NCBI GenBank assembly: GCA_014871385.1
Contig: CM026428.1
Location: forward strand, 728,653 to 792,652
Reading direction: 5' to 3'
Origin: Ceratodon purpureus
Taxonomy: Eukaryota > Streptophyta > Bryopsida > Pseudoditrichales > Ditrichaceae
DNA length: 64,000 bases
The notes below the pieces were generated by a model that was not told where the DNA came from, did not search any database, and saw only the letters and a program-made list of their open reading frames with translations. Shown here piece by piece: positions 9,280 to 15,847 of this stretch (positions are counted from its first letter, which is position 1; every line of letters begins with the position of its first letter). Made by a program: the position numbers and the translations under genes.

Positions 9280-11034
9280 TGTAATTAGTAAAATTTACAA
9301 ATAGTGGTAAGTCATGGGAATAGGTCTTTTCGTTTAGCTTTTAACGTAACTAAAGGTCACTGTAGTAAGTAAAGAATGATAGAATGCAAAGTATTTCCTT
9401 AAAAGAATCTCTTTATAACTCTAATGTCTTAATTACCCCAAGTCACATAAAACCCAAGCAATCCAAACTCTCAATTGGTTCAAGGGTAATGGGAGTTCAA
9501 ATTGACAAGTACCATCTCTCGGTTTATTGCCATCACTCCCTTCCAAGTTCAATTAGACAATGCATTTATTATGCATATGCAAGTTCATTCATTACTAGGT
9601 TAGAATCTAGTGTTCAACCTATTTATGCCTATGAATGATGCTTTGGGATATGTTATGATAGATTAACTTATCTCAAGCAACTCCTTGCTTGTCTTCATCT
9701 TTTTCCTCCCATCCAACGCATTTCAAATAGACATGTAATCACTGTCTACTCATTCACATTCAATCATACTCCAACTCTACCATTCATCACAACTATACTT
9801 CTCAATTGTATTACTCAATTACAATGACTGCACTATACTCCAATTGAATACATTCAAGTTTTATTATAATGAGAACTAATAATCACTAAGGCTGATCACT
9901 CCTTAATAATTAATTCCACTTTTATCCATCAATGTACTCAATCTGGCTTCCATAAATTCTAAGTCATTCTCAGTCTTCCATTTCAGATGGCCAATCTAAT
10001 TTAAAAGACTATCAAGTAATACTCACTTCACTGTTCCAGTACTCACATGGAACTCTCATTCTCCATAATTCCCATTCACAACAATGCAATGTCAATTGGA
10101 CAAACTGTTGTGTTTATTTTCCATAATTTCTATTTTCTATTCACTCAGTAACTCTTCCTTCGTTCTGAGTTCAAATAGACAATCTCACCCACTGTTCACT
10201 CTGCTCCATCAGCATCTTCGATTTCAAATAGACAGTATCCATTTCAATTAGACAGTATCCAGTGTGAGTCACCACATTCACTGTAACTCTCACCAACTCT
10301 CCACTGAGTCAATTAGACATGGTTCATGCAAGTCAAGTTGACAATGTATGCATGCCCATGGATGCATACCGAACCACCATCTTGTCCATTTGACCAGTGT
10401 TAACTAGACATTATGCAGCAAGTAATATGAATTCAATTGTCAATTAGACAGTAGCCATTGGATCAAACTATTCATTCTATCTCCCATAGTCTACATATAA
10501 ATTCACTGTTCAGCAGATCTGCAGTTTCAATTTGACAGTAAGCTTTGCAAATCAATTAGACAGTAATCAGTTTGTTCCAGTTCTCCATTCTGATTCTACA
10601 GTTCTGCAGATTAATACACTGTGCATCATATCTACAGTTCAATTTGACAAAGAGCATTGTGATTCAATTATACAGTGAGCTACTCAGAGTCAAGTTGACA
10701 ATCAATTAGACAATGGAATTCTATTTTTATATTTTTTACATAATGTGACTATCACTCACACAGTGTTGTGTGGTGTGGTGAAGTAATTCTTTCTTCTTCC
10801 TTAATTCCTAGTTATGCCTTAATTTCTAAAAGGTGCGCCTGTACGTAGAGTCAATTTGACAAGTCGTGTCTCTAGGTAGGGTCATATCCCCTGAATTCTA
10901 CACTATTGTCCATTTGACTCTCAACCAGATTTCTACAGCCACTATCTACATGGATATCAAATTGACATGGTAACTTGGTCCTATTTACACTGTTTTTGCT
11001 GAAAAGGACTTTTCTCAAAAAAAATCAGCTCACA
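9280..11034 (-). repeat. LTR (3' LTR in element orientation)
   Basis: 1,755 bp. In plus orientation it opens TGTAATTAGT and ends CAGCTCACA, so both strands show TG...CA ends. It matches 23940-25694 line for line. It carries eight exact GTCNANTNGAC palindromes (10091, 10308, 10332, 10384, 10439, 10689, 10850, 10908) and about a dozen one-base variants such as TTCAATTAGAC. I did not identify the TATA box or R region. Confidence 0.97.
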
Positions 11035-11048
11035 TAGCCCCCCTCTTT
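11035..11048 (-). other. Polypurine tract before the 3' LTR
   Basis: On the minus strand AAAGAGGGGGGCTA directly precedes the LTR start TGTGAGC. This is where plus-strand DNA synthesis would be primed. It fixes the element orientation as minus. Confidence 0.9.
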
Positions 11049-11166
11049 GTCTACTTGACTCCCGGCAAGTTTCACATTTACAGCATTGTCTACTAGACAC
11101 TATGTCAACTAGACTCAAAAATTATATACAAAGATTAGCTTGCACACACCCTGCAGCTACTGTCTA

Positions 11167-14100: not shown

Positions 14101-14202
14101 AGCAATTGGCCTTGTCAATTTGACCGATCCTGCAACTTCGGGTTGGGGTCTCCCTTCATCAGTTCCTCTGCCTTCTCTGTCAACTTGACCTTCGTTTACC
14201 AT
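11167..14202 (-). CDS. Third ORF of the retrotransposon, 1,011 aa, function unknown (env position)
   Basis: ATG at 14202 (MVNEGQVDREG) to the stop at 11167. Three zones are visible: a basic N-terminus with PKVKVMKNKKSKK (a likely nuclear signal); a globular part to about residue 290; a Lys/Glu-rich segment with long heptad-like stretches (about 350-510, probably coiled coil); and a C-terminal globular half with several Trp and Cys. I see no signal peptide or membrane segment, so an envelope glycoprotein is not supported despite the position. The N-terminal part loosely resembles the plant transposon domain found in some Athila ORFs (weak). At least 16 exact GTCNANTNGAC palindromes lie inside the gene in all three codon phases, which is odd for coding DNA. 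Its base composition is richer in G+C than the adjacent pol. It is a candidate for the protein that binds the motif (hypothesis). Confidence 0.8.
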   Translation of the reverse strand: MVNEGQVDREGRGTDEGRPQPEVAGSVKLTRPIARPKVKVMKNKKSKKTVLADAMQQDLSSGPRRQIEHLELKKIDREAWPQFEANRENFVKAGLWDFVMVVFEEQDDGRINQFLTSSEYGSRGMAVVDGRSVQFNSTAISKMLKLHQGDRLLTEEVGGISEDDLTNVFDRAAKTQSGYKLANAKETWKEWLLFFNQRIMLAEKGPLIMSKEGVAAAIYGWNGVKLSWGNILFDNIKVEISKKHTRYPITLYSAIYLSELTKPSSQVDSGVSTGPVRVLPDLLNLTREPEPRASTPSSSRANKVKKRRVDDSLPQCLFELNPRLGRGTRSASQVDNREPARQPALQLTQTEVAAQLKDALVRETHLRLKIKELERTVFNLTTDNNLAVEDIRRLNIQLANLAQLNEELTKPTVADIEIDTGKSFQELYNDEKQHRIELQRQFDQLNDAKIAISKLCTEERNEKKKLKAELESLKKNPMVKVVNPSDYATLKTNNELYHRTIEIGKKQLQEARMENRALRGELWKVDLTSPPSYSLFHAYELQRDNWLAMVGKDRGCLLDSGDFDAVWAASSRHANQQNLICEMIARGDVQLTDQKKLFLPIGHLGARVVLYYTTLEEQLQKRRQLDMSVESHRLVKMGDSSRQVVDVAEKVPSEELKEWTATLEGLLKEFDDRDNILVKLSCVLERETYAQRGELTTAHYVYGMHKVRQQIMDTLRELKKDHLFITSHDLQVELTLPPPTYKAPGWLSIRTPVTGSPLTVKYLGNYASLFDNEAVFPLPTWTAIEWLLEDYGLSRREERSWDLIYKEIVNVNWTDAAPEAVRTNGHFCDCRRRFKWAPDSLIDSVEYNWPLIPGQFDTAWNCATAYEGFWQIHHTHTDPVCFRAAIFSKFLARICRDFKVVVNVNRYDERRPEFLINLKLRYHSSRWGRMLEVMAMTHFLYGSNGCFINEFRGTRKIAIDNWLTFQHSNNTELLRKDDEVRREVSKLMAQRIQKESHYGDQHRNHHRRHHV

Positions 14203-15847
14203 GATTCCTTCTTTCTGTCTATTAGACTACACACTCGGCAGTTAGTTTGCTTCAATTCTTACTTTGTCTAATTGAAATTTTTCTCGGCATTGACTCTCCC
14301 TGAAACTCTCGGCACTGTCTACTTGAACTCTCGGGAATTTTATCTTTGTTATTTCCTTACTTTTAAAACTATAAAACACTTCTTCCACTCGGCAATCACT
14401 TCTATCCCTAATTTTCTACTTCACAATCATCTAAGCATACATTCCATTGAAAATATTAAGCTTCGTTCTTTCTGTTCTCTCCCTCCTTTCTCTCGGCAAT
14501 CAGTTTGTGATCATTTACGCTCTATTTTCCTATATCAGTGTATTATCATACATACATCACAGCGCAAAGTTTCAGTTTCGTTCCTTTGATCTTTTATCCT
14601 TTCTTTCTCTCGGCAAGTTGTGTCTTGTGTTTCCTAACATCTTTGTCTACTGGACAGTCACCATTCTTCACAAGTAACAGTTCAATTGGACATACAAGAA
14701 GAAGATGCGAAGACAACATGCATTCGACTTGACACAACAGAATGGATGCAATGAAACTCACCCGCAATGTGTCAACTTGACTACGAGAGATATGCCTCTC
14801 AAGATGCAATGCTTCGTCTTCCCCTTCTGTCGCACTGTTTCCAATTGACACACTCACAATGATCAGAAAACTCTGAGTCCAGTCGACCTAATGTATCGTA
14901 TCCCACTGTTTCTCACATCGATATTATCGCAACATCTCTATTAGCAACATTGTGTCCACTTGACCTAACTGTTTCTATGCTAATCAGGTTGTCCAATTGA
15001 CAAAACATCATGCGAACTCAATGACAACACAACTCACCCTCAGTATGCAACCTGAAACACCCTTTGCTCCCCCTTCGATTACTCAATCTTCTCGCACACA
15101 CTCGCTGCAGCAATGTGGTCTTCCAGTTCACTCCTTTCTCTTTCTCGGATCGCTCAGTATTTCTCACAGCTTGGTTACACAAAATGCAACAATGCGACCC
15201 TCGACTTAAAGTGCTTTTTCTCTCAGTCCTCTCGGTATCTCGCTTCGTCTCGTTCTGATCTCCTCACAAGTAAGAAACCTCAGTCCACTTGACAACTATC
15301 TCTCTCCACTCCTAACCCTGATCGCTCAGAGCGTAACACTCTGTCTACTTGACAAAAAACTCACCAAGTCTCTCGCAGACTCACAGCCGGTGCTTCTCCA
15401 AGAAAATGTGTTTGTTTTAAGGTTCTGTTTTCCAGTTTTGGGGAAGATGATGTAGTCTACTCGACTCGACCAGTCTCTTTTGTCTATTTGACAGTTAGTG
15501 GAGTTTTACACTCATTTCCATGCAACGTGGTCATCATGATCACAGCCCCCATTTCGAGTTATCATATCAGCCGTCTTTCTACTCACTAATTGTATTTTCT
15601 GATCATTACTACTTGGTCATCATTTTAGTTAGTGTCTACTTGTCAATTAGTAATTTCCATTTGCTTCGAAAAATTCTCAAGTTCAGAGTTTAAATTTGTT
15701 GAACTTTTACTTTTTGTAACTTAATTTTTTAGATCGCTGGTTTTTTAATTTTTTCAAAATTTCACAGTTTCTAGTACTTAAGTAGGACAGTTTTGAATTT
15801 TTAAATTTTTACACTTACTGCCCCCCTCTTAAATCTAGAACTTGTCC
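14203..15847 (-). other. Untranslated spacer between pol and the third ORF, rich in the palindrome
   Basis: No long frame. About 13 exact GTCNANTNGAC sites lie here, e.g. 14217, 14645, 14771, 14877, 14954, 14991, 15283, 15343, 15455 and 15482. CTCGGCA-like strings (CTCTCGGCAA, ACTCGGCAGT) also recur around 14230-14620. It may contain the subgenomic promoter or splice acceptor needed to express the third ORF; I cannot point to it. Confidence 0.65.
15821..15830 (-). other. Internal polypurine tract just after pol
   Basis: AAGAGGGGGG on the minus strand, about 18 bases past the pol stop codon. It closely resembles the tract at the 3' LTR (AAAGAGGGGGG). It may be a central priming site or the remnant of an ancestral 3' end. 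Confidence 0.6.

Follow-up and report, generated by a model that had tools for sequence, protein, structure and literature searches.

An array of conserved palindromic sites in a Ty3/gypsy retrotransposon of Ceratodon purpureus and its candidate binder, the product of the element's own extra open reading frame

A 64-kb stretch of the Ceratodon purpureus genome, analysed here at its full length and referred to as the window, carries a 16,415-bp long terminal repeat (LTR) retrotransposon of the Ty3/gypsy superfamily (9280..25694, minus strand), whose LTRs and 3' half are densely populated by the 11-base palindrome GTCNANTNGAC. Between pol and its 3' LTR the element encodes, in sense orientation, an extra open reading frame (ORF) for a protein of 1,011 amino acids (aa). 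Here, we propose, giving the idea about an even chance of being right, that the 38 distinct copies of the motif are the target array of this protein, whose binding to the LTR and 3' half would counter silencing of the element.

All 46 exact matches to GTCNANTNGAC in the window lie inside the element and, because the eight LTR sites occur twice, once in each of two identical 1,755-bp LTRs, they represent 38 distinct sites, namely 8 in the LTR, 9 in the linker that separates pol from the extra ORF, 16 in the ORF, 3 between the ORF and the LTR and 2 across the ORF boundaries. The count agrees with an original prediction, made by eye, of about 38 exact copies (8 in the LTR and about 30 internal), which had also described the motif as essentially absent from gag-pol and the leader; these contain no exact site in 8.1 kb. 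A dinucleotide shuffle gives an expectation of 0.78 for the window against the 46 found, so the enrichment holds under a formal count, and for the 6.2-kb region Markov models of order 1 to 4 give 0.10, 0.20, 0.35 and 1.93, respectively, the first of these being in line with the earlier estimate of about 0.1 and the last producing at most 5 sites in any of 200 simulations. The pattern is also specific in its spacer, GTC-N5-GAC occurring 48 times in the element and versions with any other spacer from 0 to 12 only 0-3 times each, while the general form XYZ.m.m'.zyx has 255 other versions, each present at most once in the ORF, linker or LTR. When the window was scanned for gapped palindromes in 4-kb stretches (arms of 3 or 4 bases with at least 3 different letters, spacers of 0-20, at least 5 matches), the motif and its sub-form TCAA-N-TTGA were all that passed P<1e-7. 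Across the genome (362 Mb) there are 6,193 sites compared with 3,757 for a reversed control pattern, and the first places listed cluster in copies of this element. Regular spacing of the sites was rejected, the gaps between them resembling random ones; the strongest of ten periods tried was 10.5, with R 0.27 for the 38 exact sites and 0.12 for 66 extended sites.

The 38 distinct sites span 10091..15492 and follow the layout of the element, the features of which are all read on the minus strand. The 3' LTR (9280..11034) holds 8 exact sites and 11 further sense-oriented sites that lack only the final C, and the 5' LTR (23940..25694), being 100% identical, holds the same. The linker (14227..15847) has 9 exact sites, with 1 more (14217-14227) straddling its boundary with the extra ORF (11167..14226; ATG at 14202, stop at 11167), in which the 16 exact sites occupy all three reading frames. 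A further 3 lie in the stretch from the ORF to the 3' LTR (11035..11166), where one of them (11049-11059) stands immediately before the polypurine tract AAAGAGGGGGG (11038..11048), and 1 more (11162-11172) straddles the ORF end. The gag-pol ORF (15848..22423; 2,191 aa) is free of exact sites.

The original prediction had treated the motif as a palindrome with free bases at positions 4, 6 and 8, as expected of a homodimer's site. The division into fixed and free positions stands; positions 4 and 8 are biased, however, with A or T at position 4 in 31/38 sites and C at position 8 in none of the 38, and the base beyond the motif, position 12, is A in 24/38 sites and never G. The LTR sites, moreover, are polar. 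There are 19 of the form GTCNANTNGA, of which 8 end in C and 11 in A or T, so that 11 sites lack the last C and none the first G (11 vs 0, P 0.001); one more one-mismatch site differs at position 9. In 17 of these 19, position -1 is T, and position 8 is likewise T in 17/19, compared with 2/16 linker sites (P 5e-6). In the linker and ORF the variants ending in A or T are about balanced, with 8 in sense and 6 in antisense orientation. The LTR dyad is thus made of one strong half and one weaker half, a site polar as TGTCNANTKGAH, and so departs from a strict homodimer palindrome. The homodimer part of the prediction therefore survives in modified form: dyad symmetry, conserved fixed positions, the lack of covariation and selection at the nucleotide level speak for it, and LTR polarity against it.

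Polarity of the LTR sites would also fit an action in RNA, by pairing or by binding a protein in packaging, dimerisation or stability, if transcription of the region is assumed. Complementary bases stand at positions 4 and 8 in 13/38 sites, however, with 13.3 expected by shuffling, so pairing is not what is kept, and base pairing in stems or kissing loops was rejected on this ground. As a single-stranded protein site would not be expected to show dyad symmetry either, we regard an RNA-level role as very improbable.

A more serious alternative, though still a rather unlikely one in our judgement, is that a dimeric host transcription factor, WRKY-like among others, occupies the array and drives or insulates the element. 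TTGAC, which we take to be the core of the WRKY site, is present on at least one strand in 30/38 sites, and TTGAC[CT], presumably the W-box form, in 17/38, so that the WRKY link drawn originally from TTGAC keeps some plausibility; the polarity of the LTR sites would suit such a factor as well. This is in keeping with what has been proposed for Sireviruses, whose LTR and linker palindromes matched mainly stress-factor sites in the available part of that report (PMC2829016).

The spread of the motif by tandem duplication was rejected. Flanks of the sites are unrelated (best similarity 24/50, mean 13.3), and among tandem repeats just one 20-bp pair in each LTR was found to bear the motif. That pair, together with the regional flavours of the sites, exemplified by T at position 8 in the LTR and its rarity in the linker, is what favours a functionless origin by local duplication, gene conversion or biased mutation, an explanation strongly disfavoured by the unrelated flanks and by the conservation of the sites between copies. 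Three stretches on contig C1 of the same genome were compared with the window, namely L073, which covers the linker plus roughly two thirds of the ORF, and the LTRs L074 and L075. The first two are probably from one insertion; L075 (G000:C1:226500-229000), a family LTR copy 96-98% identical to that of the window, is perhaps a solo LTR, given that there are no internal motif sites among the listed places nearby. Sites were kept in 21/22, 8/8 and 8/8 cases in L073, L074 and L075, respectively, and no new sites appeared. Fixed positions changed in 1/304 cases (1/176, 0/64 and 0/64) and free positions in 3/114 (2/66, 0/24 and 1/24), so that the two classes are not equally variable, against background changes of 298/3,576, 59/1,534 and 27/1,555. 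In the non-coding linker the fixed positions changed in 1/80 cases vs 151/1,467 for the background (P 0.003), and in the ORF in 0/96 vs 148/2,119 (P 0.003); the 10-bp flanks of the sites changed in 30/440. Taking 37 site comparisons together, 0 differences were seen vs 16.7 in random blocks, with none of 20,000 draws as low, where the site on the linker/ORF boundary was excluded and blocks in the ORF were matched for codon phase. No significant slowing relative to the background is seen at the free positions (P 0.36, 0.51), and the LTR copies, taken by themselves, differ too little for a decision (P 0.13, 0.39). Seven one-mismatch linker sites showed 0/56 changed positions, and twelve such places in the ORF 7/96. 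This conservation, observed within one genome, fits a host factor equally well.

Where a host factor fits less well is in the extension of the sites through 3 kb of coding DNA. The 16 ORF sites are distributed over frames 0, 1 and 2 as 5, 8 and 3 and encode different words, so a peptide repeat was rejected as their cause. Shuffling synonymous codons 2,000 times yields a mean of 1.1 sites and a maximum of 6, compared with the 16 present. The protein itself offers 18 places at which the motif could be encoded, 16 of them realised, as opposed to 1.7 in a shuffled protein; 16 of the codable places are true by construction, and the excess would mean that the amino-acid sequence also fits the motif. 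For gag-pol the corresponding number is 2 vs 2.75 expected, with none realised. A further 11 ORF sites have one end base off, of which 10 cannot become exact synonymously. In the ORF part of the L073 comparison, changes affect codon positions 1, 2 and 3 in 22/743, 17/743 and 107/741 cases, a concentration at position 3 indicating that the protein is under purifying selection, and the presence of sites in three frames of such a gene again argues against an absence of function. Selection at the nucleotide level within coding DNA would fit a double-stranded DNA site for a dimeric protein.

The best candidate for that protein, judging from its footprint and predicted fold, is the 1,011-aa product of the extra ORF, as had been suggested originally, with the WRKY-like host factor remaining a rival. 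Its N-terminal domain (residues 56-275; 13378..14037) has weak similarity to Transposase_32 (PF20167), scoring 14.7-15 bits, below the curated cut-off of 45 bits, and is predicted to fold partly like its top structural match, the anti-silencing protein VANC21; the model used was built from 44 sequences, a 2-sequence model with pLDDT 31 being set aside. At E<=0.001, Foldseek returned nothing from PDB or from a set of viral models. Nuclear localisation signal-like basic stretches are predicted at KVMKNKKSKK (residues 39-48; 14059..14088) and around KVKKRR (residues 299-309; 13276..13308), and long helices or a coiled coil are predicted over residues 346-528 (12619..13167), possibly serving dimerisation. 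Towards the C-terminus lies a conserved Cys/His cluster (11518..11721), possibly a metal-binding module, in which C828, C830, C862, H873, H876, C881 and C895 are each kept in 39-43 of 43 relatives. No transmembrane segment was found in the protein, its highest 19-residue hydropathy being 1.18, and an env-like identity was rejected on this account.

A search with the whole protein returned one relative, P0001, which is 97% identical and, with 16/617 substitutions, too close for site testing, while a search with residues 520-1000 returned 43 proteins with 27-99% identity over the matched part. PF20167 matches occur in 14/44 family members at E<=0.1 (best 2.9e-5) and it is the only plant-transposon domain in the Pfam scans, which covered 11 N-terminal domains at E<=10 and all 44 proteins at E<=0.1 (best 25 of 36 families) and found neither DUF1985 nor DUF287. 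No relative's DNA was found in public viral contigs scanned with the ORF, the family alignment and gag-pol, in public genome contigs scanned with the family and gag-pol alignments, or in plasmids scanned with the ORF.

To look for the motif in these relatives from their protein sequences, we took 256 palindromes one at a time and counted the words codable by each in every protein. GTC.A.T.GAC comes out on top in the window protein (18 words vs 1.44), P0001 (12 vs 0.81), P0122 (10 vs 0.78) and P0124 (9 vs 0.73), with z of 12.8 for the window protein, 9.1 for P0122 and 8.4 for P0124, compared with 4.9, 5.5 and 5.9 for the best of the 256 patterns in 60 shuffles of each. In P0122, 5/10 words, and in P0124, 6/9, stand where the window protein has none, so the footprint in these two related proteins is not only a matter of shared ancestry. 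Leaving these and P0123 aside, the 39 other relatives have 46 GTC words vs 38.4 expected, with at most 5 in each, and nine gag-pol proteins have 14 vs 22.3. A footprint that tracks the ORF family at 49-56% identity is not what a host factor would be expected to leave. The same can be said of P0123, which belongs to the clade of the footprint proteins (support 96/94) and favours ATC.A.T.GAT (9 vs 1.22) over GTC words (5 vs 1.10, rank 4); the 39 other relatives have 24 ATC.A.T.GAT words vs 30.5. This suggests, marginally after correction, a motif shifted by one base to the form ATCNANTNGAT.

Some results call for caution about the footprint test itself. Over 11,264 tests, the uncorrected Poisson value for ATC.A.T.GAT in P0123 is 5.5e-6, and GAC.A.T.GTC reaches 1.2e-5 and 1.8e-5 in P0138 and P0163. 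This last form was dropped as a candidate, being mildly in excess also in gag-pol (31 vs 22.2) and in the 39 other relatives, among them P0138 and P0163 (60 vs 38.5), with no such site common to these two. In a scan of 7,168 patterns, some CG-rich patterns reached z 7.7 in relatives where the null maximum was 5.0 (8 shuffles), which shows that shuffling is too lenient a null where proteins are repetitive.

By analogy with VANC21, countering silencing is the most likely purpose of the sites. The 1,011-aa protein, with its VANC21-like predicted fold, would dock as a dimer on the sites of the LTR and 3' half, holding one half-site strongly and the other more weakly as the polar LTR sites suggest, and many sites together would mark the element as self, open its chromatin or remove its methylation, as VANC21 does on VANDAL21. 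A protein binding its own element might alternatively repress the LTR as a form of copy-number control, activate it directly, or cluster and tether copies. Such roles share all the evidence for a self-encoded binder, and the predicted long helices and the conserved Cys/His cluster could serve bridging; we nevertheless consider them unlikely, given that the top structural match is a protein whose anti-silencing role is described in the consulted part of PMC5735166.

According to the same source, the sites bound by VANC21 read YAGTATTAY, are densely packed, share one orientation and are enriched in VANDAL21, and an element loses methylation along its whole length under the action of its VANC protein (PMC5735166); unpublished VANC structures are mentioned in portions of two meeting reports (PMC12859917, PMC8756742). 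As in these Arabidopsis Mutator-like element (MULE) DNA transposons, the element described here carries dense short motifs and encodes its own protein, the predicted fold of which may be similar. The single orientation of VANDAL motifs is matched in the LTR (11 sense, 0 antisense) but not in the linker and ORF (8 vs 6). Membership of VANDAL was rejected, however, as the carrier is a Ty3/gypsy retrotransposon with LTRs, gag-pol and a 5-bp target duplication and not a MULE; the motif is GTCNANTNGAC and not YAGTATTAY; 16 dispersed sites lie inside the ORF where those of VANDAL21 are mainly non-coding and tandem; and the protein has weak PF20167 similarity in place of DUF1985 and DUF287.

Membership of the Sireviruses was rejected too, integrase preceding reverse transcriptase (RT) in the Ty1/copia gene order, where the order here is RT, RNase H and integrase, and the motif core being different. 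Their palindromes are nevertheless the nearest known site pattern in an LTR retrotransposon, and qualify the original statement that no standard retrotransposon signal explains the motif: in the accessible part of the report, Sirevirus elements of the Ty1/copia superfamily have 8-32 palindrome copies in LTR and linker, the linker copies going with an extra ENV-like ORF (PMC2829016). As here, then, many palindromes occupy LTR and linker and an extra ORF is present, and the Sirevirus linker copies and ENV-like ORF may be the same kind of pairing. In contrast, the core here is GTC-GAC and the superfamily Ty3/gypsy, whereas 12 of the 13 Sirevirus palindromes listed have a CGG-CCG core; copies inside the extra ORF are mentioned there only at the ORF start in two elements, and that part of the report proposes no binder for the motifs (PMC2829016). 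Extra ORFs between pol and the 3' LTR are also described for plant Ty3/gypsy elements, of the Retand TRP28 type and the env-like type, the Retand ORF being predicted to bind DNA, in sections of PMC11963269 and PMC7264820. The ORF described here shares their position and differs in its sense orientation, its domain, the lack of a transmembrane segment and the matching array of DNA motifs, of which those sections make no mention. According to a 2026 paper, an extra ORF resembling dsRNA-binding proteins is present in Tekay elements of sunflower, and epigenetic modulation by such ORFs of Tork and Athila is named as a question for study in the part of PMC12844716 available. Among the titles and abstract openings listed, drawn from a literature largely outside subscription papers and bioRxiv, none describes a comparable arrangement for an LTR retrotransposon.

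As for the remainder of the element, it has TG...CA ends and is flanked by a 5-bp target-site duplication, GACTT in element sense (9275..9279 on the 3' side and 25695..25699 on the 5' side), and the primer binding site read from the sequence (23919..23936, minus strand) is like that of a tRNA we take to be tRNA-Asp. Its Ty3/gypsy assignment follows from the presence, between LTRs, of gag and then RT (1376-1533), RNase H (1599-1728) and integrase (1829-2002) in the gag-pol protein. The named RT relatives among the best 120 of 1,474 are mostly from plants (flowering plants, a fern and a liverwort, with PITA entries presumably being pine), and a pseudoscorpion, a frog and a green alga are also named. 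Upstream of gag, two small sense ORFs of 166 and 100 aa (22621-23424, minus strand) match no Pfam family at its curated cut-off. The insertion splits a pogo/Tc5-like transposase ORF (DDE_1, HTH_Tnp_Tc5, HTH_psq; 8707-9294 and 25685-26974, minus strand). In a paired-motif scan of public viral contigs, none of 72 stretches had more than 5 sites; one, L056:6023-6314, has 5 GTCNANTNGAC sites in 300 bases, possibly an operator array.

Elsewhere in the window, an ORF at 62366-63451 (plus strand) with a retinoblastoma A domain (RB_A, PF01858, E 1.4e-64) is likely part of a host RBR gene, given what we take to be its likeness to plant RBR. Another at 38208-39422 (minus strand), presumably transposase-like, has weak matches to a SWIM zinc finger and DUF5575_C, both below the curated cut-off. 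A perfect 627-bp direct repeat (47437-48063 and 48070-48696, 6 bp apart) is either a very recent tandem duplication or an assembly artefact, and a repeat family of ~0.8-1 kb has three diverged copies (42583-43442, 45924-46794 and 54454-55474) with 66-93% identity over the aligned parts.

What the extra ORFs of plant LTR retrotransposons do is presented as an open question in the part of PMC7264820 available. Here, one element ties an extra ORF that evolves under purifying selection to a motif both dense and conserved and, in prediction, to the fold of an anti-silencing protein, which turns that question into a direct binding test. The full picture, a VANC-like anti-silencing system in a Ty3/gypsy element in which the binder is the product of the extra ORF, the palindrome that it targets saturates LTR, linker and ORF, and motif and protein diverge together across the family, is one we advance tentatively and with somewhat less than even confidence. 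If it is true, then in other plant retrotransposons too, Sireviruses included, the extra ORF and the palindromes may be two halves of one kind of system. A gene whose codons, and seemingly whose amino acids too, hold sites that the encoded protein itself is likely to bind would offer a striking example of selection acting on coding sequence at the level of DNA, and the protein-footprint test allows such systems to be sought from protein sequences alone.

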